DNA of 64,000 nucleotides from Williamsia sp. DF01-3 (GTDB lineage Bacteria; Actinomycetota; Actinomycetes; Mycobacteriales; Mycobacteriaceae). Below, in pieces: positions 10,696 to 62,463 of this stretch. The notes under the pieces were generated by a model that saw only the letters and a program-made list of their open reading frames with translations, did no database searches and was not told the origin of the DNA. The stretch covers positions 4,357,733 to 4,421,732 of the forward strand of contig NZ_JALKFS010000005.1 of the NCBI RefSeq assembly GCF_023051145.1, given 5' to 3'. Both the position numbers and the translations under genes were made by a program. The first letter of the stretch is position 1. Each line of letters begins with the position of its first letter.

Positions 10696-10711
10696 TATGA
10701 CCGCAGTCACA
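10696..10711. promoter_or_regulatory. Inverted-repeat operator before ald-adh
   Basis: TATGAC-N4-GTCACA is a near-perfect 6-4-6 inverted repeat, 35 nt before the aldehyde dehydrogenase ATG. Read on the minus strand it is ATGTGACTGCGGTCATA. This shares all 11 fixed bases of ATGTGAC-N3-GGTC with the sites near 49690 and 62450. It may overlap a weak -10 (TATGAC, 18 nt after TTGGGC). The binding protein is unknown; the adjacent AcoR-like regulator is one candidate. Confidence 0.55.
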
Positions 10712-10745
10712 TAAACGACTGTGCATGCTGACGCTAGGAGAATGT

Positions 10746-12242
10746 ATGACCGCCATTGCCGAGCCCCAATTGACGTCGCGGGTAAGGGGTTTCATTTCCG
10801 CCGACCGTTCGATGCTGATCGGGGGCGAGTGGACCGGTGCCGCATCGGGCAAGACCTTCACCACCTTCGACCCGGCCACCACGGCTCCCATCACCGACGT
10901 CGCCCACGGCGACGCCACCGACGTCGACCGAGCGGTACGGGCCGCCCGGCGCGCATTCGACGACGGACCATGGGCCCGGATGAAGCCGAACGAGCGCGAA
11001 CGTCTGCTCTGGCGGGTCGGGGATCTGCTCACCGAACGCGCGGAGGAGTTCGGCCAGCTCGAAGCCCTCGACAACGGCAAGTCGGCGGGTATCGCCGCGG
11101 CTGTCGACACGGCGTGGTCGGCCGACATCTTCCGATACAACGCGGGGCTGTGCACCAAGATCTTCGGATCCACGGTCAACGTGTCGATGCCCTTTGTCCC
11201 GGGCGGCGAGTTCCACGCCTACACCCTGCGCGACCCTGTCGGGGTATGTGGCCTCATCGTTCCGTGGAACTTCCCACTCCTGATGGCGTCGTTCAAGTTG
11301 GCCCCCGCGCTGGCGGCCGGCAACACCGTGGTGCTCAAACCTGCCGAGCAAACCCCCTTGACCGCATTGCTTTTGGGCGAGATCTTCGAGGAGGCAGGAT
11401 TTCCTCCCGGGGTCGTCAACATCGTCACCGGTTTCGGTGATGCGGGCGCCGCCCTGACGGCACATCCGGACGTGGACAAGATCGCGTTCACCGGGTCCAC
11501 CGAGGTCGGCAAGAAGATCGTCGCGGCCGCGCAGGGCAATCTCAAGAAGGTCTCCCTCGAACTGGGTGGCAAGAGCCCGAACATCGTGTTCGCCGACGCC
11601 GACTTCGAGCAGGCCGTGGCCGGTTCGGTCGCCGCATGGATGTTCAACCACGGCCAGTGCTGCGTCGCGGGCACGCGGCTCTTCGTCGAGCGCCCGATCT
11701 TCGACGACTTCACCGCTGCCGTCGCAGAGGCCGCATCGAAGGCCAAGATCGGGCCTGGCCTCGATCCCACCACCGAACTCGGCCCGCTCATCTCGCAGGA
11801 GCAGTTCGACAAGGTCAGTGGCTATCTCGCTCAGGGCCTTGCCGACGGAGCACGGGCGCTGACCGGCGGAAAACGCTGGGGCACCGAAGGATACTTCATC
11901 GAACCCACCGTCTTCGTGGACGTCGAGCCGAGTTTCTCGATCGTCGAGGAAGAGATCTTCGGCCCCGTGGTGGCCGCGATGCCCTTCGACGGCGATGACG
12001 TGGTCGCTGCAGCGAACAACTCGATCTACGGACTCGCCGCCGGCATCTGGACCCGAGACCTGTCCAAGGCACACAAGACAGCCAGGCGCATCAAGGCCGG
12101 TTCGGTCTGGGTCAACCAGTACAACGGATTCGACACCGCGATGCCGTTCGGTGGCTACAAACAGTCCGGCTGGGGCCGCGAACTGGGCAACTCGGCGATC
12201 GATCTCTACACCGAGACCAAATCGGTGAACATCGCTCTCTGA
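10746..12242 (+). CDS. NAD(P)-dependent aldehyde dehydrogenase
   Basis: A 498-residue ALDH-superfamily enzyme oxidising an aldehyde to the acid. It shows the NAD-binding PWNFPLL and FTGSTEVGKKI segments, the general-base Glu in LELGGKSPN, and the catalytic Cys in GQCCVAGTR (second Cys, residue 306). The start is the ATG after AGGAG; an upstream ATG is less well placed. It is followed at 44 nt by the alcohol dehydrogenase, forming an alcohol-to-acid oxidation pair beneath the AcoR-like regulator. The natural alcohol is not evident. Confidence 0.93.
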   Translation: MTAIAEPQLTSRVRGFISADRSMLIGGEWTGAASGKTFTTFDPATTAPITDVAHGDATDVDRAVRAARRAFDDGPWARMKPNERERLLWRVGDLLTERAEEFGQLEALDNGKSAGIAAAVDTAWSADIFRYNAGLCTKIFGSTVNVSMPFVPGGEFHAYTLRDPVGVCGLIVPWNFPLLMASFKLAPALAAGNTVVLKPAEQTPLTALLLGEIFEEAGFPPGVVNIVTGFGDAGAALTAHPDVDKIAFTGSTEVGKKIVAAAQGNLKKVSLELGGKSPNIVFADADFEQAVAGSVAAWMFNHGQCCVAGTRLFVERPIFDDFTAAVAEAASKAKIGPGLDPTTELGPLISQEQFDKVSGYLAQGLADGARALTGGKRWGTEGYFIEPTVFVDVEPSFSIVEEEIFGPVVAAMPFDGDDVVAAANNSIYGLAAGIWTRDLSKAHKTARRIKAGSVWVNQYNGFDTAMPFGGYKQSGWGRELGNSAIDLYTETKSVNIAL

Positions 12243-12286
12243 CAAGACTTCTCGATATCCCCCTTCACATCATCGAAAGGACCATC

Positions 12287-13399
12287 ATGAAAACCAAAGC
12301 CGCAGTGCTACTCGAGGCCGGCAAACCGTTCGAGATCATGGAACTCGAACTCGACGGGCCGGGCCCCGGCGAGGTGCTCATCAAGTACACCGCCGCCGGA
12401 CTCTGTCATTCCGACCTGCACCTGACCGACGGCGACCTACCGCCCCGCTATCCGATCGTCGGCGGACACGAAGGGTCAGGCATCATCGAGGAGGTGGGAC
12501 CCGGCGTCACCAAGGTAAAGCCCGGCGACCACGTGGTGTGCAGCTTCATCCCCAACTGCGGTACCTGCCGCTACTGCTCGACCGGTCGGCAGAACCTCTG
12601 CGACATGGGCGCCACCATCCTGGAGGGCTCGATGCCCGACGGTTCCTTCCGATTCCACGGGGACGGAAAAGACTTCGGCGCCATGTGCATGCTCGGTACG
12701 TTCGCCGAACGCGCCACCATCTCACAGCACTCGGTTGTGAAGGTCGACGATTGGCTACCGCTGGAGACCGCCGTCCTGGTCGGCTGCGGTGTGCCGTCCG
12801 GCTGGGGAACGGCGGTCAATGCCGGCAACCTCCGCAACGGAGACACGGCGGTGATCTACGGCATCGGGGGGCTGGGCATCAACGCCGTACAGGGTGCGGT
12901 GGGCGCCGGCTGCAAGTACGTGGTGGTGGTCGACCCCGTGCCGCTCAAGCGCGAGACCGCGCTGAAGTTCGGTGCCACACACGCATTCGCCGATGCGGCC
13001 AGTGCCGCTGAGAAGGTCGATGAACTCACCTGGGGCCAAGGCGCGGACGCGGCCCTGATCCTGGTCGGCACCGTCGACCAGGACGTGGTGTCGGCCGCGA
13101 CCGCAGTGATCGGCAAGGGCGGCACAGTGGTGATCACCGGCCTGGCCGACCCGACGAAGTTGACGGTGCAGGTGTCGGGCACCGACCTGACCCTGAACCA
13201 GAAGACGATCAAGGGGTCGCTCTTCGGATCGATGAATCCGCAGTACGACATCGTCAAACTCCTGCGGCTGTACGACGCCGGCCAGTTGAAACTGGATGAG
13301 CTGATCACGCAGACCTACTCACTCGAACAGGTCAATCAGGGCTACCAGGATCTTCGCGACGGGAAGAACATCCGCGGGGTCATCCACCACGCGGCGTAA
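12287..13399 (+). CDS. Zinc alcohol dehydrogenase, NDMA-dependent type
   Basis: A 370-residue class III-like zinc ADH. Catalytic zinc ligands are GLCHSD and GGHEGSG, and the structural zinc lobe is [15 protein letters not shown]. The Rossmann motif is [12 protein letters not shown]. The pattern [27 protein letters not shown], then [10 protein letters not shown] and GKNIRGVIH is that of the NDMA-dependent / Rxyl_3153-like ADHs, relatives of M. tuberculosis AdhB (Rv0761c). In that family NADH is not freely exchanged and mycofactocin is the proposed external acceptor; that is inference here because no mft genes are in the window. A strong Shine-Dalgarno (AAAGGA) precedes it. Confidence 0.9.
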
Positions 13400-13411
13400 C
13401 GACTCCCGACG

Positions 13412-13447
13412 AAGGCCCGTACCCGTCTCGCCAGGGGTGCGGGCCTT
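13412..13447. terminator. Hairpin between convergent adh and crotonase genes
   Basis: AAGGCCCGTACCC pairs with GGGTGCGGGCCTT around a 10-nt loop, a stem of about 13 bp with one T-G pair. There is no long T run on either side. It lies 12 nt past the adh stop and 16 nt before the crotonase stop, so it can serve both strands. Confidence 0.65.
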
Positions 13448-13463
13448 TGCCGTATATCGTGCA

Positions 13464-14279
13464 TCAGCGTCGGCGTGCCATTTCCTCGGTGCGTCTGCGG
13501 ACGACCTCGATCTGCTCGGGTGAGCCGATCAGCTTCCGGATGGCGACCTGCTCGGCGTCGAATCCTGCGGCGAGGTCCACTCGCCCGGCCAGTTCCAGCA
13601 GAGCCTTGGCCTCGACCAGTGCGCCCCGGGAGTTGCCCGCGACCTCGATGGCCAGCGCCGTGGCCGCCGACAGCGGTTCGTCGTCGGTGCGGGTCACCAG
13701 ACCCAGTGCGGCGGCATCGCTTCCACTGAATCTACGACCGGTGAACACCAGCTCCTTGGCGACGTCGCGGCCGACGAGCTCGGGCAGTATCTGCGTGCCG
13801 GTCATGTCCGGGATCAGCCCCCAGACGATCTCCATCACCGACAGTGTGGTGTCGGGCGCGGCGATCCGGACGTCTGCGCCGAGCGCCACCTGCAATCCCC
13901 CACCGAACGCGACGCCGTGGAGGGCGGCGATGACGGGTACGGGCACCAGCGACCACACGTGCACGGCTTGTTGACCCAGAGCCGTTGCCGCGCCCAGACG
14001 TTCGCGGTCGGCCACGACGTCGGCAGCCCCACCTTGCATCAGTTCGAACTGCCCCATGTCGAGACCGGCACAGAACGCCCGGCCTTCACCGGCCATCACC
14101 ACCGCGGAGACATCGGTGCGATCGATGAGAGCTGACCCGACGTCGACGAGCGCCTCGAACATCGCCGGATCGAGGGCGTTCATCTTGTCCGGCCGATTGA
14201 GCCGCACCTGCGCGACCCCATCGGCGACCTCGCAGGTCACCCGCTGCCGTCCTGCTGCGTCCCCGCTCGTGTCAGTCAT
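13464..14279 (-). CDS. Enoyl-CoA hydratase/isomerase (crotonase) family protein
   Basis: A 271-residue crotonase-fold protein. The oxyanion-hole segments are FCAGLDM and GVAFGGGLQVALGAD, and the second acidic position is kept in SVMEIVWGLIPD. Where canonical hydratases have the catalytic Glu144 (GGGxEL) this protein has Gln. It may therefore be an isomerase, a thioesterase-like or a reduced-activity member and not a standard beta-oxidation hydratase. The start is ATG at 14279, or GTG one codon earlier. It stands alone, convergent with adh. Confidence 0.85.
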   Translation of the reverse strand: MTDTSGDAAGRQRVTCEVADGVAQVRLNRPDKMNALDPAMFEALVDVGSALIDRTDVSAVVMAGEGRAFCAGLDMGQFELMQGGAADVVADRERLGAATALGQQAVHVWSLVPVPVIAALHGVAFGGGLQVALGADVRIAAPDTTLSVMEIVWGLIPDMTGTQILPELVGRDVAKELVFTGRRFSGSDAAALGLVTRTDDEPLSAATALAIEVAGNSRGALVEAKALLELAGRVDLAAGFDAEQVAIRKLIGSPEQIEVVRRRTEEMARRR

Positions 14280-14325
14280 CACCGATTCATATCAGGTGGC
14301 CTGCCGGCAGCGGAAGAAGATGGAC

Positions 14326-14658
14326 CTAGGTGTTCGGATCGGCCTCGGCACGCGTCTTGATGTCGGCGAGACGACGATCCCAGCCGGCGGCGATGCCATC
14401 CAGTTCGCGGCCGATCCGGCTGAGCCGGGCGCCCACCGCGGTGAACCTCACCTCGCGGCCGGACTTCGACGACGAGACCAGGCCGGTTTCCTCCAAGATC
14501 GCCAGATGCTTGGCGATGGCCTGTCGCGAGACCGGGAACTCCGCCGCGAGCGCCGACGCGGACGCCGGGGACCTGCCCAGCCTGACGAGCAGCCCCCAGC
14601 GGGTGTCGTCGGCGAGCGCGGCGAAGACTGCCGGCAGTTCGGTGTCAGCTCCGGACAT
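14326..14658 (-). CDS. ArsR-family HTH transcriptional repressor
   Basis: A 110-residue winged-helix protein: AALADDTRWGLLVRLGRSPASASALAAEFPVSRQAIAKHLAILEE contains the SRQAIAKHL recognition helix, followed by a wing (GREVRFTAVGARL). No metal-binding Cys pair is seen, typical of ArsR regulators paired with SRPBCC proteins. It overlaps the upstream SRPBCC gene by 14 nt, so the two are translationally coupled. It probably binds the two palindromes upstream of the pair. Confidence 0.9.
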   Translation of the reverse strand: MSGADTELPAVFAALADDTRWGLLVRLGRSPASASALAAEFPVSRQAIAKHLAILEETGLVSSSKSGREVRFTAVGARLSRIGRELDGIAAGWDRRLADIKTRAEADPNT

Positions 14659-15103
14659 CGACCTGAGCAAGTTCGAGATGCCGCTTGGCGATGCCCAGTT
14701 CCTGGGTCCATCCCTCGGTGTTGTCGTCGAACTTCTTGCGCCGTTCGGCGGCGTCCCCGGGCAGAGACGCGAACCCGCTCTCGGCAACCCTGAGGACCAC
14801 TGACCCCGAGGACATCTCGTCGATCCAGAACTCGACCAACGTCGAGGCGCCTGCGGTGTCGTCCACATCGGCGATCCAGCGGAAAGCAGCGTACTTCGGC
14901 GGGTCCAGCGTGACGGTGCGAAGGGCAAAAGCGCCGTGCACCGGATCATGCACGATGTCGACATCACCGGACCGCTCGATCCGGTGGGGGGTGATCTCGG
15001 AATCGTTGATGTACCAACCGGGCTCACTGATCAGCGACCACACCCGATCCGCCGGTGCGTCGATGTCGATCTGCCGCTCGATGCGGTCGAAGTCTTCAGT
15101 CAT
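14645..15103 (-). CDS. SRPBCC (AHSA1-like) domain protein
   Basis: A 152-residue START/Bet v1-like protein (IERQIDIDAPADRVWSLISEPG at the N-terminus, then YAAFRWIADVDD and TLVEFWIDE). The ATG follows GGAGGACACC. Its partner is the ArsR gene it overlaps. Such pairs are common in actinobacteria; the domain binds hydrophobic ligands in a deep cavity, but the ligand here is unknown. Confidence 0.88.
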   Translation of the reverse strand: MTEDFDRIERQIDIDAPADRVWSLISEPGWYINDSEITPHRIERSGDVDIVHDPVHGAFALRTVTLDPPKYAAFRWIADVDDTAGASTLVEFWIDEMSSGSVVLRVAESGFASLPGDAAERRKKFDDNTEGWTQELGIAKRHLELAQVDVRS

Positions 15104-15123
15104 GGTGTCCTCCGTGTCGGATT

Positions 15124-15180
15124 GATATGCAACCCAAGGATTGCACATCTCGGCTCCGATATGCAACCTCCCGGTTGCAC
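15124..15180. promoter_or_regulatory. Two copies of an ArsR-type palindromic operator
   Basis: GATATGCAACC-N5-GATTGCAC (15124-15146) and GATATGCAACC-N4-GGTTGCAC (15158-15180) are near-identical 23-bp units. Each is built on TGCAACC/GGTTGCA arms, and they start 34 bp apart, about three helical turns. They sit 20-77 nt upstream of the SRPBCC ATG and just before the TetR stop codon. They are probably the autoregulatory operator of the ArsR protein. Confidence 0.75.
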
Positions 15181-15184
15181 AACA

Positions 15185-15787
15185 TCAGCGGAGGGACACC
15201 CGGAGTTGCTCCGCCCACGCCCCGACGACCTGCCTGCGACGCGCGGAGTCGTCGGACAACGTATCGGCCAATCCGAGCCCACGCGCGAAGTCAAGGGTTG
15301 CCTGCACCAGCCGATGGACCTTGGGGTCCGAATCGTCGACCCCCAGCATGTGCACCGTCATCGAATGGGCCGCGGCTCCGAACCGACCCTCGAGTGGCAG
15401 AATCAACCGGCGCAGCGATTCGTCCGATGCTGCTGCGCACCACACCTGTAACGCCGCCTTGAACTCCTGACCGGTATAGAACTCGACGGCCGTGGCGACG
15501 GCGACCTCGATCCGTCCGGCTCCAGGTGGGAGTCGCTCGGCCTCGTCGGTGGCACGCATCGTCAGGTTCTCGAAGACATGCTCGAGAGCGGCGGTGATGA
15601 GGTCCTCGCGGGTCGGGAAATGATGTTGCGCCGCACCGCGGGACACCCCCGCACGGCCGGCAACCACACCCACGCTGCACGCCGCCCAGCCATCGACGGC
15701 AAGGACGTCGATGGTCGCGTCGAGCAGGCGCTGCCGCGTCGCCCGGCTGCGGTCCTGCTGGGGAGTTCGTACAGGGCCGCGCGTCAT
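15185..15787 (-). CDS. TetR-family regulator closing the atu-like operon
   Basis: A 200-residue TetR protein. The N-terminal HTH is TIDVLAVDGWAACSVGVVAGRAGVSRGAAQHHFPTREDLI; the rest is the ligand/dimer domain. The ATG (15787) overlaps the stop of the hydratase gene as ATGA, so it is the eighth and last gene of the operon. By position it is the likely local repressor, comparable to AtuR of Pseudomonas, acting on the large palindrome at 24954-24987. That pairing is inferred. Confidence 0.9.
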   Translation of the reverse strand: MTRGPVRTPQQDRSRATRQRLLDATIDVLAVDGWAACSVGVVAGRAGVSRGAAQHHFPTREDLITAALEHVFENLTMRATDEAERLPPGAGRIEVAVATAVEFYTGQEFKAALQVWCAAASDESLRRLILPLEGRFGAAAHSMTVHMLGVDDSDPKVHRLVQATLDFARGLGLADTLSDDSARRRQVVGAWAEQLRVSLR

Positions 15788-16545: not shown

Positions 16546-16565
16546 ATCGGTTCTCGGCTTCGCTC

Positions 16566-44007: not shown

Positions 44008-44607
44008 TCAGGCCAGAATCTGGCGCGCGGCAGCCTCGAGCTGGTCCGCGACCTCGCCGTAGGACAGGTGACCCATACCCGCGCGAACCATCGCACCGGT
44101 GTAGACCAACTCCAGCAGTCCCACATCTCTGGAGCTCCCCTCAGACCCGACGGCTGCCACCAGGAGTCGATGGATCTCGCGGCTGATCTGGAAGCGGAGC
44201 TGTTCGACGTCGGAGTCATTGCTGAGCAATGCCTGCGTCACCGCCGCGGCGAACTCGGGCTCGTCGGCGACATTGAGGGCCAGGTACCGCAGCACGCTCA
44301 CGACGCGCTCGATCATCTCCGGAGAGTCGTTGGCCGGAGGTGTGGCCGTGGTCAGCCGACGCCAGTACACCTCTGCGACGAGGTGTTCCTTCGAGGAGAA
44401 ATAGATGTAGGCGGTCGCGCGGGCCAGGCCCGCCTTGGCCGCGACGAGAGGCACCGTCAGCTCCGAGTAGCCCACTTCGCCGAGTACCTCGACGGTGGCC
44501 GCACCCAGTTTCAACACCGTGTCGGCACGTTTGCCCGTCAGTCGTCGACGAGTGGCTTCAACCGGGGACTGATCAGGCACAGCTGGCAACGGTACCCCGA
44601 CCGCCAT
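44008..44607 (-). CDS. TetR-family regulator, paralogue of the cyp51-block TetR
   Basis: A 199-residue TetR protein (start taken at the ATG at 44607; upstream in-frame extension is weak). HTH: LTVPLVAAKAGLARATAYIYFSSKEHLVAEVYWRRL. C-terminal LVYTGAMVRAGMGHLSYGEVADQLEAAARQIL resembles LYSGALVRAGMGYETYSAIADRLDAAARLLL of the other. The close match of both DNA-binding and C-terminal parts points to duplication. It may control the adjacent transporter. Confidence 0.9.
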   Translation of the reverse strand: MAVGVPLPAVPDQSPVEATRRRLTGKRADTVLKLGAATVEVLGEVGYSELTVPLVAAKAGLARATAYIYFSSKEHLVAEVYWRRLTTATPPANDSPEMIERVVSVLRYLALNVADEPEFAAAVTQALLSNDSDVEQLRFQISREIHRLLVAAVGSEGSSRDVGLLELVYTGAMVRAGMGHLSYGEVADQLEAAARQILA

Positions 44608-44668
44608 GGGGGTCACCAACCTGCTCCGGCCGACCACTCGGCACAGGGCGCCTCAGGCGCGGGCCGTT

Positions 44669-48733: not shown

Positions 48734-48762
48734 GGTGTCCTCGTCGGAGTCGATTGCGAAAA

Positions 48763-49646: not shown

Positions 49647-49704
49647 TTGACACCTCAGATGGCCCTGTGACTGAATGAAACCAGGAAATGTGACGTAGGT
49701 CTCA
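49647..49704 (+). promoter_or_regulatory. Promoter and operator of the spirocyclase/molybdopterin operon
   Basis: TTGACA (49647-49652), a 17-nt spacer and ACTGAA (49670-49675) form a promoter. It is followed by ATGTGACGTAGGTCTCA, an inverted repeat (TGTGAC-GTAG-GTCTCA, 49689-49704). The zinc alcohol dehydrogenase at 62.5 kb has the same layout: TTGACA, N17, ACTAAT, then ATGTGACGTGGGTCGCA. The operator lies just past the -10, a position that suits repression. Confidence 0.6.
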
Positions 49705-49801
49705 CATGTTTGCACTATGACACCACCACTCCTGGTCACCATCCAACAGCCCATCCACGCGACCACCACGAGGTGGCCGACTGCAGGACGGAAGAGCACT
49801 C

Positions 49802-50758
49802 ATGTCCGGACCCCCTGTCACGTCAGACACGGTGCCGACGCATCCAGGCCGCACGAAAGGTCCACTGCGACCGTCGAAGACGGCGCTGATCCTCGCCGCC
49901 GTCGGACTGTTCTTCGTCGCGATCCAGGCCTACGGCTATATTGCGTGGCTTCTCGCCGATCCGGCGAAACAGCCAGAAGGCAACGACCCGGTGCCGGCCT
50001 CGGTGATGGCGAATGTCGATCGCGCGGAGGCGATCCTGATCGTTTTGACTGTTGTCTGGATCGCGGTTTTGGTCTTTTCCTGTTGGCGTGCAAAGGGACT
50101 CACGTGGCCGCTGCTGCTGACCTTCGCGTGGTCCGCGGTCTACTGGCAGGAACCCCTCGTCAACGCTCTGGACCACAACTTCACCTACAACGCCCATCTT
50201 CGCGATCGGGGCGACTGGGTGCGTCACCTGCCGTTCTCCCCCGTCGACGGGCCCACCCTCTCGCAGCCACTGTTCGAGGCCCTGGTGTTCTTCGCCTTGC
50301 TCCCCATCTTCGGTCTGCTCAGCTACGCCATCCTGCGAGGACTTCACCGCATCGGTCTCCACCCACCACTTCTGCTGGTGCTGTCGGTATGGCTCATCTT
50401 CGTCGTCCTGGACGCCGCATTCGAGATGGCCGGGATCGCACAGGGCCTGCTCGTGTGGAACCGGGTGGCCGACAACCTCGCGATCAGCGCGGGTACCGCC
50501 GATCAGTGGCCGGTGTACGAGGGCATCATGCTCGGCTTCCTGTGGGCATTACCGGGCATGCTCATGTTCTTCCGCGGGGACCACCGCTTCAGTGTTCTCG
50601 ATCCCGGAATCGACGTGCTGCCGGGCGCCCTGCCGGTCGTCGTGCGACTGCTCGCCCTCGCGGGTCTTCTCAACGTGGCGTTCCTCGCGTACAACATCGC
50701 TCTGATGGTGTTGTCAGGGTCGACGGTCGCACCCGCGCCGAGCTGGTTGTCGCCGTGA
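49802..50758 (+). CDS. Spirocyclase AveC-like integral membrane protein
   Basis: A 318-residue membrane protein with about seven helices; the first is ALILAAVGLFFVAIQAYGYIAW. It carries the spirocyclase/AveC family pattern, with internal HNFTYNAHLRDRGDWVRHLPF, Trp-rich turns and a C-terminal MLMFFRGDHRFSVLDPGI. AveC of Streptomyces acts in avermectin spiroketal formation; the actinobacterial homologues have no known role. It is first in the operon and its stop overlaps the next GTG (GTGA), so co-translation with the molybdopterin enzymes is likely. Confidence 0.78.
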   Translation: MSGPPVTSDTVPTHPGRTKGPLRPSKTALILAAVGLFFVAIQAYGYIAWLLADPAKQPEGNDPVPASVMANVDRAEAILIVLTVVWIAVLVFSCWRAKGLTWPLLLTFAWSAVYWQEPLVNALDHNFTYNAHLRDRGDWVRHLPFSPVDGPTLSQPLFEALVFFALLPIFGLLSYAILRGLHRIGLHPPLLLVLSVWLIFVVLDAAFEMAGIAQGLLVWNRVADNLAISAGTADQWPVYEGIMLGFLWALPGMLMFFRGDHRFSVLDPGIDVLPGALPVVVRLLALAGLLNVAFLAYNIALMVLSGSTVAPAPSWLSP

Positions 50759-52866
50759 CCGCGCCCGTGGACAAGACAACGTTCTGCCGTATCTGCGAAC
50801 CGATGTGCGGCATGATCGCCACCGTTTCGGACGGCCGCCTGCTCCGTTTGAGACCTGATCCAGCACATCCGCTGAGTGAGGGATACGCCTGTCCGAAAGG
50901 CATCGCGTTCAGCGACATCGTCAACGACGACGATCGGGTTCTGCATCCGTTGCGCCGACGGCCCGACGGTGGTTTCGATCGGGTGTCATGGGACTCGGCG
51001 ATGTCGGAGATCATCGCCCGACTGCGCAAGGTGTACACCGAGCACGGTGGCGAGTCGATCGGCGGCTACCTCGGCAATCCATCGGTCTTCAACACCGGAC
51101 TGATGATCTGGAGCGGACTGTTCTTCCAGATGCTCGGCAGCCCACACATCTACAGCTCCAATTCCCAAGACGCCAACAACCGTTACGCTGCAAGCCATTT
51201 CCTCTACGGCAACGCCCTCGCCGTACCCATCCCGGACATCGAGAGGGTGGAGCTGCTCGTTGTGGTCGGGGCAAATCCGGTTGTGTCCCACGGCAGCTTG
51301 ATGAGCACTCCGCGGATTCGGGACAAGTTGGTCGGCGTCCGCCGGCGAGGCGGACGGGTGCTGGTGATCGACCCGAGGCGCACCGAGACCGCCCGTGAGT
51401 TCGACTGGATGCCCATCCGCCCGGACACCGATGCCCTGCTGATGCTGTCGCTCGTCAACGTGATGTTCGCCGAGGGGCTCGTCGACCTCCGAGCAGTCGC
51501 CGCAAAGGCGACGGGCGTTGTCGCCATCGAGAAGCTCAGTGCTCCTTATTCACCCGAGGCAACCGAGGAGCGAACGGGGGTACCGGCGGCGACAGCGCGC
51601 ACGCTCGCGCGCGATCTGGCCGGCACATCTCGCGCAGCCGTCTACGGACGCGTCGGCACGTGTCTGGGCCGGAACGGTACGTTGACCACCGCCTTGCTCG
51701 ACATCGTCAATCTGCTTGCGGGCAATCTCGACTCGGTCGGCGGCTCCATGTTCGGCACGATGGGCTTTCCAGCCGAGCGCGCGATCGCACGTGCCATGCA
51801 GCGGTCGGGCGGATTCGGCTGGGGCGCACGTACCAGCCGCATCGGCGGATTCCCTCAGGTGGCCGGGCAGGCACCGGCGTCATTGATGGCCAAGGAGATC
51901 ACCACAGCCGGGCCCGGACAGCTGCGGGCGTTGTTCCTCTGCGCGGGCAATCCCGTGCTGTCGGTACCCAATGGCGCCGAACTCGCCAATGCGCTCGGGC
52001 AGACGGATCTCTGCGTGTCCTTCGACCTCTACCGCAACGAGACCAATGCCCAAGCCGACTTCATCCTCCCGGCTCCGAGCATGTACGAACGTCCCGATCA
52101 CGTGCTGATGTTCCAGTCGCTCTACACCACACCCTTCAAACAGGCCACGGACCCGGTCATCGCGCCCATGGGTGAGAGCCGCCCCGAGTGGCAGGTGTTC
52201 AACGAACTCGCCGGCGGCCTTGCGGACCTGTCGACCAAGATGCGGGCAATGGCGTTCGTGGACAGAGCCTCTCGAAGGCTTGCGCGTCCGGTGGACCCGG
52301 AAAGGGTGATCGACGGCCTCATCAGATTGGGTCAGGGCGGCGATCGCTTCGGCATTCGTCGGCGTGGCCTGAATCTGGCGCGGCTGCGAGCCGAGCCCAG
52401 TGGCGTCGTGGTCGCCGAACACCTCCGTCCCGGCCGGCTGCGCACCGTGGTCACCCATCGTGGTCGCAAGGTGAAACTGGATGCACCGGAGCTCATCGAG
52501 GAGTGTGGGCGCCTCGATCTCGACGAGCCCGCGGACCTGCCACTGCTTTTGATCGGGATGCGTGAGGTCCGCTCGGAGAACACCTGGCAGCACAATTCGC
52601 CAATGCTCCTGCGCGGCGGGCGAAGTCACACGGCGCGTATGCATCCTGACGACGCCGATGCCCGCGGGGTCGCGGACGGTGACATCGTGTCGGTGCGGTC
52701 GGCGCACGGCGAGATAGTCCTGCCGATCACTGTCACGGCGGACATCTCACCCGGCGTCGTCGCCATCCCGCATGGCTGGGGACACAACGGCTCCGGCGGC
52801 TGGACACGCGCAAACGACGCCGCCCGTGCCGATTCGGGCAGCGGGGGGCCAACGTCAATCAGCTGA
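50755..52866 (+). CDS. Molybdopterin oxidoreductase 1, C-terminus frameshifted
   Basis: As read, 703 residues of the DMSO-reductase superfamily. An N-terminal [4Fe-4S] motif (CRICEPMCGM, then GYACPKG) is followed by the Mo-bisMGD domains (IPDIERVELLVVVGANPVVSHGS, VLVIDPRRTETAREFDW, IRPDTDALLM) and a C-terminal MopB-like barrel. The frame breaks in a run of six G (52843-52848). One more G continues as ANVNQLISSDPADLERL to a stop at 52961, overlapping the next gene. The Mo ligand is not obvious: the usual Cys/Sec site reads SSNSQDANNRYAAS. GTG start. Confidence 0.87.
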   Translation: MTAPVDKTTFCRICEPMCGMIATVSDGRLLRLRPDPAHPLSEGYACPKGIAFSDIVNDDDRVLHPLRRRPDGGFDRVSWDSAMSEIIARLRKVYTEHGGESIGGYLGNPSVFNTGLMIWSGLFFQMLGSPHIYSSNSQDANNRYAASHFLYGNALAVPIPDIERVELLVVVGANPVVSHGSLMSTPRIRDKLVGVRRRGGRVLVIDPRRTETAREFDWMPIRPDTDALLMLSLVNVMFAEGLVDLRAVAAKATGVVAIEKLSAPYSPEATEERTGVPAATARTLARDLAGTSRAAVYGRVGTCLGRNGTLTTALLDIVNLLAGNLDSVGGSMFGTMGFPAERAIARAMQRSGGFGWGARTSRIGGFPQVAGQAPASLMAKEITTAGPGQLRALFLCAGNPVLSVPNGAELANALGQTDLCVSFDLYRNETNAQADFILPAPSMYERPDHVLMFQSLYTTPFKQATDPVIAPMGESRPEWQVFNELAGGLADLSTKMRAMAFVDRASRRLARPVDPERVIDGLIRLGQGGDRFGIRRRGLNLARLRAEPSGVVVAEHLRPGRLRTVVTHRGRKVKLDAPELIEECGRLDLDEPADLPLLLIGMREVRSENTWQHNSPMLLRGGRSHTARMHPDDADARGVADGDIVSVRSAHGEIVLPITVTADISPGVVAIPHGWGHNGSGGWTRANDAARADSGSGGPTSIS

Positions 52867-52944: not shown

Positions 52945-55254
52945 ATGCCCGACCGAGCTGAACCGGGGAACCCGGACCTCTTGGCTGGTCCGGCCGACCA
53001 TCCGGTGACATGCCCACTGTGCGAGGCGATGTGCGGTCTTCGTGTCCACACCGAGGGCAACACCGTCACATCGATCCGCGGCGACCGCGAGGACGTATGG
53101 TCGCGTGGACACCTGTGTCCCAAAGGGACCGTCCTCGGGCACCTGCACGATGACCCGGACCGTCTTCGCGAACCCATGGTCAAACGCGCGAACGGCGAAC
53201 ATGTTCCGGTGTCCTGGGACGACGCGTACGAGGAGGCGGAGCGGGTGTTGCGACCGGTCCTCGAACGTCACGGGGCGCGGGCGCTGACCGTCTACGTGGG
53301 AAACCCGGCGGCACACAATGTGTCGCTGAGCTCCTACATCGGCGGCCTGATCGGGATGGGTCAGGCGGCGGGGATGCAGACCTACTACTCCCCTGGCACG
53401 GTTGATCAGTGGCCACTCAATGTGGTCGGCGCACTGCTGTTCGGTGGCATGTGGAACGCACCGATCCCAGACCTGGACCGCACGGATCACCTGGTGGCGC
53501 TCGGCGCCAACCCCGCTGCGTCACAGGGTTCGATGCTCTCGGCGCCGGACGTGATGGGCAAGATCCGCGGAATCTCGCGCCGCGGCGGCCGGGTCGTGGT
53601 CATCGATCCCAGACGCACCCGCACCGCGCAGGGTGCCGACGAGTGGGTACCCATCCGTCCCGGCACCGACGCCCTGCTGTTGTTCGCGATCTTGCACACC
53701 CTCGCCTCGAACGGCTGGGTGAAGCGGCCGCAACACCTTCAGGGCCGGGTCACCGGACTCGACGATGCGATCGCCATGGCAGCGCCGTTCGCACCCGAAC
53801 GCGTGGCACCGGTATGCGGCGTCTCCGCCGACTCTATCCGTCGACTCGCCGCCGGGCTCGCACATGCCGATAGCCCTGTCCTGTACAGCCGGATCGGTTC
53901 GTGCACGCAGGAATTCGGGTCGTTGGCCACGTGGCTGGTCTTTGTGCTGAACACCGCGCTCGGCGCCATCGACCGCCCTGGGGGCGCACTCTTTCCGAAA
54001 CCCGCGGTCTGGTCACCGATGTTCATGAAGCCGCCCGATCAGGATGCACCCGGGTGGCAGTTCGGCCGGTATCACAGCCGAGTCCAAGGCATCCCCGAAG
54101 TGTTCGGCCAGTTCCCGGTCAGTGTCCTGGCCGAGGAGATCGACACGCCCGGTGACGGGCAGATCCGCGCCTTCATCAGTGTGGCAGGCAATCCGGTGAT
54201 CTCGGCGCCGGGATCGGCTCGGCTCGACGCCGCTCTCGGCACCATCGACGCCATGGTCTCGGTGGACAATTGGCTGAACGAGACCACCCGCCACGCCCAT
54301 GTCATCTTGCCCGGACTGTCTCCGCTGGAACGTTTCCACGCCGACGACCTGTACTGGAACTACGCAACCGCGTCGTGTGTGAAGTGGTCCGAGCCGGTGT
54401 TCGCCCCGGACTCGGGCCGGCCCGCCGAGTGGGAGATCCTGCTACGGCTGAGCGGCGCCGTGCTGGGCACCCCGGTCCCCGACGTGGACGTGGCCGCCAT
54501 GGACGACCTCTATGTCGGCGGCCTGGTGGCAACCCTGTGTACCAGCTCCGACACGCCTTTGGCCGGCCGCGATGCCACCGCTTCGTTTGAAGCCCTCCGG
54601 GGTGTGGGACCCGAACGACTCGTCGATCTGGGAATCAGGCTGGGGCCGTGGGGAGATGATCTCGGTCGAAGACCCGGCGGCCTCACACTCGACGATGTAC
54701 GGGACCACCCGAACGGACTCAGGCTCGGCGAACTCGAGGGCGACCGTCTCGACGAGGTTCTGAGCACACCCTCGGGCACCATCGAACTGGTGCATCCGCA
54801 CCTGACCGCCGACATCAACCGACTCGAACGGCGGATCGACCGCGAAGCCGACGAGTTGGTGCTCATCAGCCGGCGGCATCTGCGATCCAACAACTCGTGG
54901 CTGCACAACGTCCCCGCACTCATGCGCGGCCGCGACCGCTGCACCGTGTTGGTGCACCCAGCCGATGCTGCACGGCTGGACCTCATCGACGGTGCGGCCG
55001 CCGAGATCACCACGTCTGCTGGTTCACTCACAGCACCGGTGGAGGTGAGTGACGAGATGATGCCGGGGGTGGTGTGCCTTCCGCACGGTTGGGGGCACGG
55101 CGTGGCCGGCACGAGGCTCGCCACCGCCAACACGCACCCCGGTTCGAACTCCAATCTGCTCAATCCGCCAGAGCTGTACGACGTGCCGAGCAACACACAG
55201 GTGGTCAACGGCGTACCGTGCCGGGTCACATCGGCTGTCTCACAGGACCTTTGA
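52945..55254 (+). CDS. Molybdopterin oxidoreductase 2
   Basis: A 769-residue paralogue of the preceding enzyme. [4Fe-4S] motif CPLCEAMCGL then LCPKG; cofactor segments IPDLDRTDHLVALGANPAASQGS, RVVVIDPRRTRTAQGADEW and IRPGTDALLLF; the Mo-ligand region reads YYSPGTVDQWPLNVV, without an evident Cys or Sec. C-terminal GVVCLPHGWGHG and NTHPGSNSNLL are MopB features. Similar in length to the M. tuberculosis protein Rv0197. The start overlaps the restored end of gene 1. Substrate unknown; both chains might form a heterodimer or act in turn. Confidence 0.92.
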   Translation: MPDRAEPGNPDLLAGPADHPVTCPLCEAMCGLRVHTEGNTVTSIRGDREDVWSRGHLCPKGTVLGHLHDDPDRLREPMVKRANGEHVPVSWDDAYEEAERVLRPVLERHGARALTVYVGNPAAHNVSLSSYIGGLIGMGQAAGMQTYYSPGTVDQWPLNVVGALLFGGMWNAPIPDLDRTDHLVALGANPAASQGSMLSAPDVMGKIRGISRRGGRVVVIDPRRTRTAQGADEWVPIRPGTDALLLFAILHTLASNGWVKRPQHLQGRVTGLDDAIAMAAPFAPERVAPVCGVSADSIRRLAAGLAHADSPVLYSRIGSCTQEFGSLATWLVFVLNTALGAIDRPGGALFPKPAVWSPMFMKPPDQDAPGWQFGRYHSRVQGIPEVFGQFPVSVLAEEIDTPGDGQIRAFISVAGNPVISAPGSARLDAALGTIDAMVSVDNWLNETTRHAHVILPGLSPLERFHADDLYWNYATASCVKWSEPVFAPDSGRPAEWEILLRLSGAVLGTPVPDVDVAAMDDLYVGGLVATLCTSSDTPLAGRDATASFEALRGVGPERLVDLGIRLGPWGDDLGRRPGGLTLDDVRDHPNGLRLGELEGDRLDEVLSTPSGTIELVHPHLTADINRLERRIDREADELVLISRRHLRSNNSWLHNVPALMRGRDRCTVLVHPADAARLDLIDGAAAEITTSAGSLTAPVEVSDEMMPGVVCLPHGWGHGVAGTRLATANTHPGSNSNLLNPPELYDVPSNTQVVNGVPCRVTSAVSQDL

Positions 55255-55257
55255 TCA

Positions 55258-56349: not shown

Positions 56350-56410
56350 CGACACACCTTTATCGCGGACTCGCGGGGCAGTTCCCCGCCGGACTCCACC
56401 ATTAAAACAT

Positions 56411-56424: not shown

Positions 56425-56470
56425 ATGAGTCCATCCAGCCGATGTCGACCACGGCAGCGCAATCGGTAGC

Positions 56471-57379: not shown

Positions 57380-57657
57380 GCTCCGCGCGCCGCTCGCGCC
57401 GCGATCCGCGCCTGCACCTCGGGACGACGCAGAGGCGGAACGGTTTTGGGGGGTTGTCGCCGGGGCGGCAACGACTGGAGCAACTCTTGCGTCGCAGCGG
57501 TCACCCGCAGGACCGCGAGTTCGAACGCCTGCTGGTTCGCCTCGGACGGCTTCTGCACGCCGCTGACCTTGCGAACGTACTGGCGGGCCGCGGCCTCGAT
57601 CTCAACGTCGGTGGCCGGAGGTTCGAGTCCACGAAGCTCAGTGATGTTGCGACACAT
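57376..57657 (-). CDS. DUF2277 family protein
   Basis: A 93-residue protein starting MCRNITELRGLEPPATDVEIEAAARQYVRKVSG, the DUF2277 signature. It lies 15 nt downstream of the quinone oxidoreductase gene and is probably co-transcribed. Its TAG stop lies on the same CTAG as the convergent amidohydrolase stop. Function unknown. Confidence 0.9.
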   Translation of the reverse strand: MCRNITELRGLEPPATDVEIEAAARQYVRKVSGVQKPSEANQQAFELAVLRVTAATQELLQSLPPRRQPPKTVPPLRRPEVQARIAARAARGA

Positions 57658-57672
57658 TGTTTTCCACTCCCA

Positions 57673-58641
57673 TTATTCCGATATCTTGACTACCGCCTTG
57701 CCGAGGACCTTGCCTGCCGCCAGGTCGTCGAGAGCCTGGGGCAGATCGGCCAGTTCATAGGTCACGTTCACCGGTGGCCGCATGCCGTCGGCGATCATGG
57801 TGGTCAGCTCCTGGTGGATCTGCGCCGGAAGTCCGGGGTGGGTGCGGACGTACTCGCCCCAGGCAGCTCCGACCACCGAGATGTTCCGGAACAGCACCCG
57901 GTTCAACTTGACCGTGGGGATACCGCCTGCCGCGAACCCGATGACCACGAACCGGCCGTCCGGGGCCACCTGACGCAGCGCCTCGTCGAACACCTCGCCC
58001 CCCACCGGGTCGATCAGGACGTCGACACCGTTGCCGGTGAGTTCCTTGATCCGCGAGCCCCAGCCTTCCTCGAGCTGAACCACCTCGTCGGCGCCCATCT
58101 CCCGCAGCATCTCTTCGGCACCGGTGCGATGCACGATGGCGATCACCCTGGCGCCCATTGCCTTTGCCACGCGGATGGTTGCCACGCCCACACCCCCGGC
58201 GCTACCGAGAACGCCGACGGTCTCACCCGGTTCGAGATGGGCACGTGTCTTCAGCGCGAACAGCGCGGTCTGGAAGTTGATGCCCATGGCGGCACCCTCG
58301 TCGAATGTGAGGCCGTCCGGGATGGGCAGCAATTGCTCGGGCGCCGCAGCCACCTTTTCGGCAAAACCGCCCACCACCGACATGACAAGAACCCGGTCGC
58401 CCACCGACAGGTCGGATCCCTCGGGCACCCACGACACGACACCCGCCACCTCGGTGCCCGGGGTGAACGGAGTCGGCACCCTGAGCTGGTACTTGCCCTG
58501 GCTCATCAGGAGGTCGGGGAAGCAGACGCCGCAGGATTTGATGTCGACCAGCACCTGGGTGCCGGTGGGTTCCGGATCCGGGACCTCGTTCAGGGACAAT
58601 CCGCTCGGGCCGGTTTCTTCGGTGAGTATCTGCGCCTTCAT
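57673..58641 (-). CDS. NADPH:quinone oxidoreductase-like medium-chain dehydrogenase
   Basis: A 322-residue zinc-independent MDR: the catalytic-zinc positions are not filled as in alcohol dehydrogenases (SCGVCFPDLL), and the Rossmann motif is GSAGGVGVATIRVAK. GQYELRTPFTPGTEVAG-type segment present. Start ATG at 58641 (MKAQILTEE). Likely reduces quinones or enones with NADPH. Divergent from the methyltransferase gene. Confidence 0.9.
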   Translation of the reverse strand: MKAQILTEETGPSGLSLNEVPDPEPTGTQVLVDIKSCGVCFPDLLMSQGKYQLRVPTPFTPGTEVAGVVSWVPEGSDLSVGDRVLVMSVVGGFAEKVAAAPEQLLPIPDGLTFDEGAAMGINFQTALFALKTRAHLEPGETVGVLGSAGGVGVATIRVAKAMGARVIAIVHRTGAEEMLREMGADEVVQLEEGWGSRIKELTGNGVDVLIDPVGGEVFDEALRQVAPDGRFVVIGFAAGGIPTVKLNRVLFRNISVVGAAWGEYVRTHPGLPAQIHQELTTMIADGMRPPVNVTYELADLPQALDDLAAGKVLGKAVVKISE

Positions 58642-58643
58642 AA

Positions 58644-59375
<732 letters not shown>

Positions 59376-59383
59376 CCCCTGAT

Positions 59384-59416
59384 CGCTGACGCCCGGCCAT
59401 GGGCCTGGCGTCAGCG
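59384..59416. terminator. Bidirectional hairpin between convergent genes
   Basis: CGCTGACGCC (59384-59393) and GGCGTCAGCG (59407-59416) form a perfect 10-bp stem. The loop contains a second GGCC/GGCC pairing. The right arm includes the stop codon of the phosphoesterase. No T run follows, common for actinobacterial terminators. Confidence 0.65.
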
Positions 59417-59923
59417 GTTCACCTTCTCGATCCGATGCAGAACGACATCGCCGAGGTCGCCATCGGCCACGCGAGCAGTCATGTACGTGCAATACGGCTG
59501 CCTGCGCCGGTCGGTGGGCGAACCGGGATTGAGTAGACGCAGACCCGTGCCCGTGGTGGTGTCCCACGGGATGTGGCTGTGACCGAACACCAGGACATCG
59601 GTGTCGGGGTACGCGATCGACATCCGTTTGTCCCGACCCACTGACGCGCCGGTCTCATGCGTGACCGTGAAACGCAGCCCGCCGAGGGTCACATCGGCGC
59701 GCTCGGGCATGCGCGAGCGAAGATCAGGGCCGTCGTTGTTCCCCCAGCACGCGATCAGTCGTTTCGCCCGGCGCTCGAGTGCTTCGAAGCTTGCCAGGTC
59801 GACCCAGTCACCGGCGTGGATCACCACATCCGCCCGGTCGACCTCGTCCCACACGACCGAGGGAAGGTCTTTGGCGCGCTTGGGGATGTGGGTGTCGGCC
59901 AGCAGCAACAGTTTCACGACCAC
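59411..59923 (-). CDS. YfcE/MJ0936-type metallophosphoesterase
   Basis: A 170-residue calcineurin-like phosphoesterase: DTH, HAGDW, GNNDG, THETG and GHSHIP metal-binding motifs in order, at the usual length for the YfcE family. GTG start (59923, or a second GTG at 59917). Probably a phosphodiesterase on small substrates such as cyclic nucleotides. It stands between convergent genes. Confidence 0.9.
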   Translation of the reverse strand: MVVKLLLLADTHIPKRAKDLPSVVWDEVDRADVVIHAGDWVDLASFEALERRAKRLIACWGNNDGPDLRSRMPERADVTLGGLRFTVTHETGASVGRDKRMSIAYPDTDVLVFGHSHIPWDTTTGTGLRLLNPGSPTDRRRQPYCTYMTARVADGDLGDVVLHRIEKVNR

Positions 59924-59989
59924 AGTTCTACCGCCCGCGGCCGCGGTCTCACTCGGCGATCGGTCGATCGGAACCTTCGATCTACGCCT

Positions 59990-61357
59990 TCATCGGCCTG
60001 CCGACCACCCGGCAGTGGCGCGGTGGGCATCGCCGAGGATCTCCGCGCGATCCTCGCCGAGGACAAAACCACGCGCGATCGCCTCGTCGGCGGCAGCCGT
60101 GTACTGCTCGAGATACGCCTCGGGTGTGCCGTACATCGTGGTGAGTTCAGACGGGGACAACGGGACGGTGGACCCGAACAGCTGGCAGATCCGAGACGCC
60201 GTGGCCGTGCTGAACCCGCTGAGGACCGACGTCGGGACCTCCACGCTCGGGGTGCGCACTCCCCCGACGACGTTGCCCACCGCATCGGTGACGAACCGCG
60301 GAGTGGGCCCGGTGTCGTCCACCGCCATCTGCTCGGCGGCAGGCGGCTCGCGCCCGTCGCTCACCCAGGCAGCGAGATGACGCAGGGCGGCCCGGACGAC
60401 AAAGCGTTGTTGGCCGTCGTTGACCGCGGTGGGACATCCCAGGAACGTCTCGAAATCACCGATCTGGAATCGGTCGGCGTGCGCACTGCCTGCGACTTCC
60501 CACAGTCGCAGTCGGGCCGAATCGTCTTGTCGGGCAGGGTGGTACCAGAGATGCCCCAAGATGTCGGTCTCGGTTTGCACGAGGATCACCGGGACGTCGA
60601 GATCGTCGCGGATTCGCACGGCTGGTGCACCCAGAGCGGCGACGAGATCGATGGCCCGGCCAGGTTCCCCGAGCGGCATGGGGGCGCCTGCCCGGCTGTG
60701 GATGACAAACCCGTCGACGAGACGGTCATGCGGCTGGACGCCGTTCGCATACGTGGTCATGGCGAGCGCGGACTGGGACTCACCGACCGCCAGCACCCGC
60801 TGGATGTCGAGGTGGGCCAGCGGGGTCGCAGAGCCGTTTCGCAAGGTGTCGATGATCTTCGAGAAGATCGAATAGCTGTAGCCGTCGCCGGGGTGATGCA
60901 GGCCGCCGTACCGCTCCGGGTCGGCACCGACCAGGCCCTTCGGCGCGCCATCACCGACGGCCACCGTCGCCGAGCCACCCTGCACGCCGGAGAACTGCGC
61001 CGACACCCCCACCCAGGCGTATCCGCCCCGGACGATCTCCTCGCTCAGGTAGGTGTAGTCGGGGGCCGCGTCCTGTCCGCTGCTGACGTTCAGCCACTCC
61101 ACCACCAGCGTGCCGTTGAAGCGCTCGGCGTCGGCGGGCGCTCGCGTGACCACGCGGGTGATGAACTCGGCGTCATCGACCGGCTCGATGTCGAAACGGC
61201 CATCGGCCGGCAGGTCGGCGGCGGTGTACCTCGTCGCCACCCCCGACACCGCGTATTCACCCTCGTCATACCCGGCGCCGGCCAGGTCGGGGCCGGGCAC
61301 CGCCGACATCAGCGACAGGCCGGCACCTCCGCTGAGCACCGCGAACTCGACGCCCAT
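59990..61357 (-). CDS. Alpha/beta hydrolase domain protein (PF20091-like)
   Basis: A 455-residue hydrolase with nucleophile GESQSALAM, and AGSAHADRFQIGD near the C-terminal third carrying the likely His. A large insert (LNVSSGQDAAPDYTYLSEEIVRGG) is typical of this family, which lacks a signal peptide here. The start is ATG (MGVEFAVLSGG); 46 nt separate it from the next hydrolase upstream. Substrate unknown. Confidence 0.8.
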   Translation of the reverse strand: MGVEFAVLSGGAGLSLMSAVPGPDLAGAGYDEGEYAVSGVATRYTAADLPADGRFDIEPVDDAEFITRVVTRAPADAERFNGTLVVEWLNVSSGQDAAPDYTYLSEEIVRGGYAWVGVSAQFSGVQGGSATVAVGDGAPKGLVGADPERYGGLHHPGDGYSYSIFSKIIDTLRNGSATPLAHLDIQRVLAVGESQSALAMTTYANGVQPHDRLVDGFVIHSRAGAPMPLGEPGRAIDLVAALGAPAVRIRDDLDVPVILVQTETDILGHLWYHPARQDDSARLRLWEVAGSAHADRFQIGDFETFLGCPTAVNDGQQRFVVRAALRHLAAWVSDGREPPAAEQMAVDDTGPTPRFVTDAVGNVVGGVRTPSVEVPTSVLSGFSTATASRICQLFGSTVPLSPSELTTMYGTPEAYLEQYTAAADEAIARGFVLGEDRAEILGDAHRATAGWSAGR

Positions 61358-61403
61358 CAGGCGACCTTTCTGTAGCGACCGGGAGTCATCCTCATCGGTG
61401 GTG

Positions 61404-62303
61404 TCATGTCCGCGCATCCCCTCGTGCCGTGGTGGCCGGCGACCGGCCGATGCGCGAGAGTATCGCGTCGGCGATGGCCTCCGGATGCTCGTCGGGCAGC
61501 CAGTGCGAGGCATCTGGGATCTCGATGAAGTGGTAGTCGCCGCGCACGAACTCGCCGCAACGCTCGGCTCCGGCCCTCGCGATCGCGATGTCGCCCGAAC
61601 TCCACACGAACGTGGTCGGTACGTCGACGACGGGAACGTCTTCACTCGCCGGGGTCTGAGCGCGGTACCAGTTCAGAGCGGCGGTCATCGCCCCGGGCGC
61701 GCTGAGGACCCGCACATGCTGGTCGGCCACATCACTGGGAACCGCATCCCCGAAACCCATCCGCAGCGCAGCGGCATCGTCGGCCAGCAGATTGAACTCG
61801 GGCTCATCCGGTATCTGGAAGTACTCCATGTACCCCGAACGCTCCCGCTGCTCGGGGTCTTCGCTCTTGGCCCACGCGAAAGCTGCGGGATGCGGCACGG
61901 ATACGGCGGTCAGCGACGAGATCCGTTCGGGATGCCGCGCGGCCACGGTCCAAGCGACGGCAGCTCCCCAGTCGTGTCCCACGAGATGCACGGTGTCCAG
62001 CCCGAGTGCGTCACAGATGGCGATGACGTCCGCGACGAGTTCGTCGAGCTGGTAGGCGTCGACCTCGACGGGGCGGGCGCCGGCCGAGTAACCGCGCTGA
62101 TCAGGTGCGATCGTCGCGTAACCGGCGTCCCGCAGCAGGTCGGCAACAGCTCTCCAGGATGCTCGCGATTCGGGGAACCCGTGCAGCATCAGCACAGTCC
62201 CTGCCGGCGGTGACTCCGGCCGCGACACCGAGATGTCGAACGTCAGATCACCGACGGTCACCTGCTCCGGCGTGGTCCCGCCGCCGTTTGCCCCATTGGT
62301 CAC
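61404..62303 (-). CDS. Epoxide hydrolase-like alpha/beta hydrolase
   Basis: A 299-residue alpha/beta hydrolase: HGFPESRASW (oxyanion), the nucleophile elbow GHDWGAAVAW with Asp as nucleophile, GDIAIARAG and DASHWLPDEHP (His). The Asp nucleophile and HGFPE are those of epoxide hydrolases and haloalkane-type hydrolases. GTG start (VTNGANGG). It forms an operon with the PF20091-like hydrolase. Confidence 0.9.
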   Translation of the reverse strand: MTNGANGGGTTPEQVTVGDLTFDISVSRPESPPAGTVLMLHGFPESRASWRAVADLLRDAGYATIAPDQRGYSAGARPVEVDAYQLDELVADVIAICDALGLDTVHLVGHDWGAAVAWTVAARHPERISSLTAVSVPHPAAFAWAKSEDPEQRERSGYMEYFQIPDEPEFNLLADDAAALRMGFGDAVPSDVADQHVRVLSAPGAMTAALNWYRAQTPASEDVPVVDVPTTFVWSSGDIAIARAGAERCGEFVRGDYHFIEIPDASHWLPDEHPEAIADAILSRIGRSPATTARGDART

Positions 62304-62342
62304 CTGCGGCAGTCTACTGAGCACGCTCCGTCCCACCAATGA

Positions 62343-62357
62343 TTTGCACAGTGCAAA
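62343..62357. promoter_or_regulatory. 15-bp perfect palindrome in the hydrolase/ADH divergent gap
   Basis: TTTGCACAGTGCAAA is a 7-1-7 inverted repeat, 40 nt upstream of the epoxide-hydrolase-like GTG. A single half site, TTTGCAC, occurs at 49709 before the spirocyclase gene. Possible repressor site for the hydrolase pair; regulator unknown. Confidence 0.4.
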
Positions 62358-62407
62358 CACTCTGCGAAAGCGGTTGCGCCACTTGACACTCAGACGCGGG
62401 ATTCTCG

Positions 62408-62463
62408 TTGACAGTACCGCGCTGCTGTGAACTAATGACGGAACAAATGTGACGTGGGTCGCA
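62408..62463 (+). promoter_or_regulatory. Promoter and operator of the zinc ADH operon
   Basis: TTGACA (62408-62413), 17 nt, ACTAAT (62431-62436), then ATGTGACGTGGGTCGCA. The inverted repeat TGTGAC-GTGG-GTCGCA is 62448-62463, about +5 to +20 from the expected start. It matches the site at 49689 in layout and sequence (identical at all but three bases over AAATGTGACGTRGGTCKCA). A second TTGACA at 62383 has no good -10. Confidence 0.6.

Follow-up and report, generated by a model that had tools for sequence, protein, structure and literature searches.

Boxes shared by oxidation operons of Williamsia sp. DF01-3 are predicted targets of the global regulator Crp/GlxR

We analyzed a window of 64,000 nucleotides on contig NZ_JALKFS010000005.1 of Williamsia sp. 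DF01-3, in which copies of one short inverted repeat precede several oxidation genes; coordinates are window positions. The genes concerned are (i) the ald operon, with an aldehyde dehydrogenase (ald, 10746 to 12242, plus strand; Pfam Aldedh) and an NDMA-dependent alcohol dehydrogenase (ADH; 12287 to 13399, plus; TIGR03989 with 558.5 bits against a cut-off of 440) of a family that we take to be linked to mycofactocin; (ii) the AveC operon, with a spirocyclase AveC-like protein (49802 to 50758; Pfam AveC_like) and two molybdopterin oxidoreductases (50761 to 52866 and 52945 to 55254; Pfam), all on the plus strand; (iii) the zinc-ADH operon, with a zinc-dependent alcohol/polyol-type dehydrogenase (62506 to 63501, plus; Pfam ADH_N and ADH_zinc_N); and (iv) a cytochrome P450 (1 to 678, minus), of which only the start lies in the window, the gene continuing to the left (Pfam p450 on the full gene, L081). 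The ald operon is accompanied by the gene of an AcoR/DhaR-like regulator with a Fis-type HTH_8 domain and an AAA lid (8944 to 10593, plus; Pfam HTH_8 and AAA_lid_14).

Four predicted Crp/GlxR boxes lie before these genes, namely, at 10696 to 10711 for the ald operon (TGTGACTGCGGTCATA on the minus strand, TATGACCGCAGTCACA on the plus strand), at 49689 to 49704 for the AveC operon (TGTGACGTAGGTCTCA, plus), at 62448 to 62463 for the zinc-ADH operon (TGTGACGTGGGTCGCA, plus), and at 733 to 748 before the P450 gene (TGTGACGTGGTTTACA, minus). A sequence-only reading of the window had reported the first three as 16-base sites with a weaker relative before the P450 gene, and all its coordinates are exact. 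The promoter likeness that it described upstream is also present, with predicted plus-strand promoters TTGACA-N17-ACTGAA at 49647 to 49675 and TTGACA-N17-ACTAAT at 62408 to 62436. Its inverted repeat, TGTGAC-N4-GTCNCA, is perfect at the 49.7- and 62.4-kb sites and has one mismatch at ald and two at 733; when up to two mismatches are allowed, the window shows no enrichment of this pattern (13 sites versus 28 expected). The sequence ATGTGACNNNGGTC occurs three times in the window (10699 to 10712 on the minus strand, 49688 to 49701, and 62447 to 62460), against an expectation of 0.06, and none of 100 shuffles gave three copies. Read as 16-mers, the three copies are TGTGAC-N4-GTCACA with one mismatch each, i.e., sites of the TGTGA-N6-TCACA type, which is the Crp/GlxR consensus. 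A window search for TGTGA-N6-TCACA with at most one mismatch returned precisely the four sites above, and none for the reversed pattern.

The cyclic-nucleotide (cNMP) domain has only two matches in the genome, a 224-amino-acid protein (L025), whose gene lies on the chromosome outside the window, and a 629-amino-acid open frame. The L025 protein aligns over its full length with the PDB entries 3h3u (phmmer E value of 2.8e-134) and 4cyd (3e-112), which we take to be Crp of Mycobacterium tuberculosis and GlxR of Corynebacterium glutamicum, respectively. A manual count of the alignment with 3h3u gave 19 differences in 224 residues, or about 91% identity, and the stretch GASRETVNKALADFA, which presumably contains the recognition helix, is identical. 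The entry 3D0S, named M. tuberculosis CRP in PMC5327559, scores like 3h3u against L025. As judged from these alignments, the genome encodes one close Crp/GlxR orthologue.

The box is not confined to the window. With at most one mismatch, TGTGAC-N4-GTCACA occurs at 22 places in the genome versus 9 for the reversed pattern, and the looser TGTGA-N6-TCACA set comprises 88 sites versus 44, so that about half of the 88 may be due to chance. A coding-frame test covered all 22 strong places (15 in L010 to L024, 4 in L068 to L071, and 3 in the window), with all 9 reversed-pattern places (L087 to L095) as the control. A coding-like frame with a local score above 8 crossed none of the 22 boxes and 6 of the 9 controls (P = 0.0001); above a score of 5, the counts were 1 of 22 (a 28-amino-acid frame in L011) and 6 of 9 (P = 0.0007). 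The boxes of L010, L012, L069, and L071 lie in the upstream part or another stretch of a long open frame with a low local score and were counted as extragenic. The exact 11-base motif of the sequence-only reading has 9 genome copies versus none for its reversed control. Six of these are among the 22 near-palindromes; the other three are not, and one of them (L005) lies within a called gene, and the motif was therefore rejected as the unit.

Genes near the boxes were identified by Pfam, and ten were scanned. They encode a DUF485 protein (L011), a second aldehyde dehydrogenase (L014), an E1 dehydrogenase (L016), a transglycosylase (L019), a cyclopropane mycolate synthase (L021), a sodium:solute symporter (L022, 476 bases from the box), a solute-binding protein (L068), a universal stress protein (L071), and a third molybdopterin oxidoreductase (positions 1436 to 2800 of L069), directly upstream of which there is a perfect TGTGA-N6-TCACA at 1399 to 1414; the L012 gene had no Pfam match. 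Given this diversity of genes, the motif is not limited to alcohol oxidation, and the box set looks global rather than like an alcohol-oxidation regulon. The proposal of the sequence-only reading that the operons form a private regulon for one substrate is thus not upheld, since the genome has 22 strong copies of the box, near genes of many kinds.

Conservation differs among the four boxes. The ald box is found in all nine Williamsia genomes as TATGAC-N4-GTCACA (ending in GTCATA in G008), with varying spacer bases and with its start 50 to 65 bases upstream of the ATG. A close ald is present in 53 of the 121 family genomes sampled, and we compared 31 ald promoters, comprising the 30 best-scoring loci (8 from Williamsia and 22 from eleven other genera) and that of Williamsia G005. 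Within 150 bases, the best match to TGTGA-N6-TCACA had one mismatch in 13 promoters, two in 17, and three in 1. Two mismatches or fewer were thus seen in 30 of 31 promoters, as opposed to 9% of shuffles, and the reversed pattern in 0 of 31. The right half of the box is nearly fixed, and T and G occupy positions 3 and 4 in all 31. This result is consistent with ancient control of ald by a GlxR-type regulator throughout the family.

The AveC-operon box is conserved as TGTGA-N6-TCTCA in all seven genomes aligned, G001 and G006 being outside this count. Searching named genomes with the AveC protein returned five loci, of which three belong to Williamsia (W. muralis NBRC 105860, 97% identity; W. 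muralis BULT 1.1, 94%; Williamsia sp. 1135, 71%) and two distant ones to mycobacteria. In four other species, G002, G005, G007, and G008, the promoter at 49647 to 49675 aligns with that of a ligase operon, upstream of an acyl-CoA ligase gene (an AMP-binding enzyme by Pfam in G008). AveC follows the ligase in G007 and G008, whereas no AveC match was found in G002 and G005, which were reached via the palindrome TTTGCACAGTGCAAA (the TTTGCAC palindrome), nor in G001 and G006. These four species share with G000, G003, and G004 a block of TTGACA, TGACTRAATG, TGTGA-N6-TCTCA, and TTTGCACAGTGCAAA. In G000, G003, and G004, the operon begins with AveC, and the last palindrome of the block reads TTTGCACTATGACAC (49709 to 49723, plus, in the window), which aligns with the perfect TTTGCACAGTGCAAA of the four species and is probably its decayed remnant. 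The box accordingly stands at the start of the AveC gene in three of five genomes, and at the operon promoter in G007 and G008, where AveC comes second.

The remaining two boxes are narrowly distributed. TTGACA and YTAAT precede the zinc-ADH gene in all nine genomes of the genus; YTAAT ends 7 to 8 bases before the ATG in five species and 69 bases before it in four close species. Given the short distance, the five species probably make ADH transcripts with little or no leader. In the four close species, the leader is longer by about 60 bases, and the predicted Crp box lies in this extra part; the box is thus present in 4 of 9 species. The P450 box is identical in the four close species only, and at least three mismatches separate the pattern from the best site before 14 other related P450 copies in nine genomes; its conservation is weak support, as the flanks are conserved as well. 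The conservation in sister species that the sequence-only reading had expected of its sites thus holds for the ald and AveC-operon boxes and fails at 62.4 kb, where the box is absent in five of nine species with an ADH match.

Taken together, the sequence match, the single close orthologue, the extragenic genome-wide set, and the conservation of the ald and AveC-operon boxes make it very probable that the four window sites are boxes of the global cyclic AMP (cAMP) receptor protein Crp/GlxR, known as Crp in mycobacteria and as GlxR in corynebacteria. The idea of one regulator common to all sites is probably right, with Crp/GlxR and not the AcoR-like protein as the best candidate. The motif is probably a global carbon switch rather than a private operator for one alcohol pathway. 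The boxes are ordinary in kind, being predicted targets of a well-studied global regulator, and what had been taken for a private operator thereby becomes a set of such targets in a little-studied genus. Of more value are two further candidate operators, TGT-N11-ACA before ald and the palindrome TTTGCACAGTGCAAA.

Known systems agree in several respects. In PMC10483779, C. glutamicum ald is described as repressed by GlxR through the site TGTGCGCGTTGTCACA, which lies past the transcription start; of two GlxR sites predicted there, one was bound in an electrophoretic mobility shift assay, and an evolved strain mutated in that bound site had fourfold ALDH. Both species have a Crp/GlxR orthologue, an aldehyde dehydrogenase of alcohol oxidation, and, in the leader of ald, a box of the TGTGA-N6-TCACA type close to or past the start (a predicted start here). 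C. glutamicum ald is, according to the same text, monocistronic and linked with RamA and RamB, whereas Williamsia ald is followed by the NDMA-dependent ADH and preceded by the AcoR-like regulator gene and an element of its own. M. tuberculosis Crp (Rv3676), as presented in PMC4117774, resembles the Williamsia system in the regulator (about 91% identical), the palindrome, the global spread, and a position-dependent repression or activation, binding near the start going with repression. Its chromatin immunoprecipitation sites are equally intragenic and intergenic, whereas the strong Williamsia boxes, where binding is predicted, are extragenic. The CRP consensus of Rhodococcus jostii, GTGANNTGNGTCAC in PMC5327559, is close to the motif of the sequence-only reading. 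The R. jostii boxes reported there precede starvation-induced genes, whereas the positions of three of the four window boxes suggest repression. Among the matches listed in a literature search, nothing relevant was found for Williamsia with CRP, cAMP, or GlxR or for the second palindrome, which does not prove absence from print.

The positions of the boxes suggest how they may act. A start placed at about 49682 to 49684 puts the AveC-operon box at about +6 to +23. For the zinc-ADH operon, a start at about 62443 to 62445, placed as in the five species without the box because their ATG lies 7 to 8 bases past the -10 element, gives the box a position of about +4 to +21. At the ald, AveC-operon, and ADH boxes, Crp-cAMP would bind at or just past the transcription start and block RNA polymerase, which would fit the M. 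tuberculosis pattern; from box position, we moderately favor Crp repression at these three operons. The oxidation operons would then be kept down by a global carbon signal, and specificity would come from substrate-specific regulators: the AcoR-like activator at a TGT-N11-ACA element before ald and a further regulator at TTTGCACAGTGCAAA, which stands before ADH and also, in relatives, precedes the AveC operon. The P450 box would lie near -43 and could allow activation by Crp, a weak proposal that depends on a -10 element guessed by eye.

Several points weigh against the assignment to Crp/GlxR. (i) Each of the four window boxes departs from TGTGA-N6-TCACA at one position. (ii) Some of the boxes listed are due to chance, given the 9 and 44 sites of the reversed controls. 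(iii) Genes were called with a purpose-made GC-position scorer, by which a convincing downstream gene was absent at L010, L013, L017, L023, and L070. (iv) The 31 ald promoters are related and not independent events, and the left half of their box is loose, with G at position 2 in 9 of 31 and A at position 5 in 17 of 31. (v) The 62.4-kb and P450 boxes are confined to four close species in which the flanks are conserved too, and their conservation there is little informative. (vi) The transcription starts are predictions, and a simple promoter scan had no hit at either the AveC or the ADH promoter.

Three other readings were weighed. A local regulator of the catabolic island, for example, the TetR-family protein at 44008 to 44637, might bind TGTGAC-N4-GTCNCA. 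Three of the 22 genome palindromes do fall within one 64-kb window (Poisson P = 0.002, calculated post hoc for a chosen window), and the AveC-operon box lies 3 to 4 bases from a second palindrome. However, the other 19 lie elsewhere in the genome with called genes of other kinds nearby, relatives across the family retain the ald box, GlxR is reported to act on ald in C. glutamicum, and the TTTGCAC palindrome is a better candidate site for such a protein. We consider this reading improbable.

The proposal that the AcoR-like protein binds the TGTGAC sites, with the operons as its private regulon, appears highly unlikely. It draws on gene order, the AcoR-like gene directly preceding ald in the window and 27 of 31 loci having a homologue upstream of ald on the same strand (tblastn, within the flanking DNA examined; a short peptide signature, which found 14 of 31, was too narrow). 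HTH_8 proteins bind inverted repeats, which also counts in its favor. The C-terminal part of the protein resembles DhaR with 91.8 bits, under the cut-off of 551. Against it stand the spread of TGTGAC boxes over the genome near genes of other kinds and a separate element, TGT-N11-ACA (10654 to 10670, plus), which all 31 ald promoters contain; 22 of them have 6 or more of 8 pairs, a form reached by 12 of 3,100 shuffles. In the window, the element is missing from the promoters of the AveC operon, ADH, and the P450 gene and therefore does not join the operons, and a search for its full ald form with up to three mismatches gave a single occurrence there. The candidacy of the AcoR-like protein as the common binder, put forward by the sequence-only reading, falls with this result. 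TGT-N11-ACA is the likelier site of this protein as far as promoter comparison goes and may carry specificity for AcoR-like control of ald and the NDMA-dependent ADH. A literature search for AcoR with Rhodococcus and related terms gave no match, which does not prove absence from print.

That the 11 bases are shared by chance is most improbable and is disfavored for the ald and AveC-operon boxes, since three copies were found versus 0.06 expected and these boxes persist in 9 of 9 and 7 of 7 aligned genomes with changing spacers. Points in favor of chance are the 9 palindromes that the reversed control yields per genome and the narrow conservation of the 62.4-kb and P450 boxes.

A better lead to substrate-specific control is the palindrome TTTGCACAGTGCAAA, which links the ADH promoter with the AveC-operon promoters of relatives and may carry specificity for the catabolic island. 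A perfect copy, the candidate second operator of the ADH operon, lies at 62343 to 62357 (plus, no mismatches). With up to two mismatches, it precedes adh in all nine genomes of the genus, and four species have a perfect copy at the ligase promoter (for example, L073 7313 to 7327, L074 3748 to 3762, and L076 3525 to 3539). At this threshold, the pattern has 4 to 10 places per genome versus 1 to 7 for the control, and most of the other copies may be due to chance. It is conceivable, though we would not put it at even odds, that the AveC, molybdopterin-enzyme, acyl-CoA ligase, and zinc-ADH island is a catabolic regulon under dual control. A local repressor at TTTGCACAGTGCAAA would be coupled to the Crp box 3 to 4 bases away at the AveC-operon promoter, and the ADH operon of the four close species (the W. 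muralis group) would have gained a Crp box in its new leader of about 60 bases while keeping the ancestral, nearly leaderless promoter.

As to the owner of the palindrome, a TetR-like gene divergent from the ligase (L074 3013 to 3648; so called by eye, with no Pfam match at 1e-6) is a weakened, not an eliminated, candidate because G000, G003, G004, and G006 have only 40 to 41% matches to it elsewhere and yet keep the palindrome at ADH. Further candidates are the TetR-family regulator at 44008 to 44637 (minus; Pfam TetR_N), which has a similar protein in L073, L074, and L076, and an IclR-type gene downstream of the window (L072 1073 to 1933).

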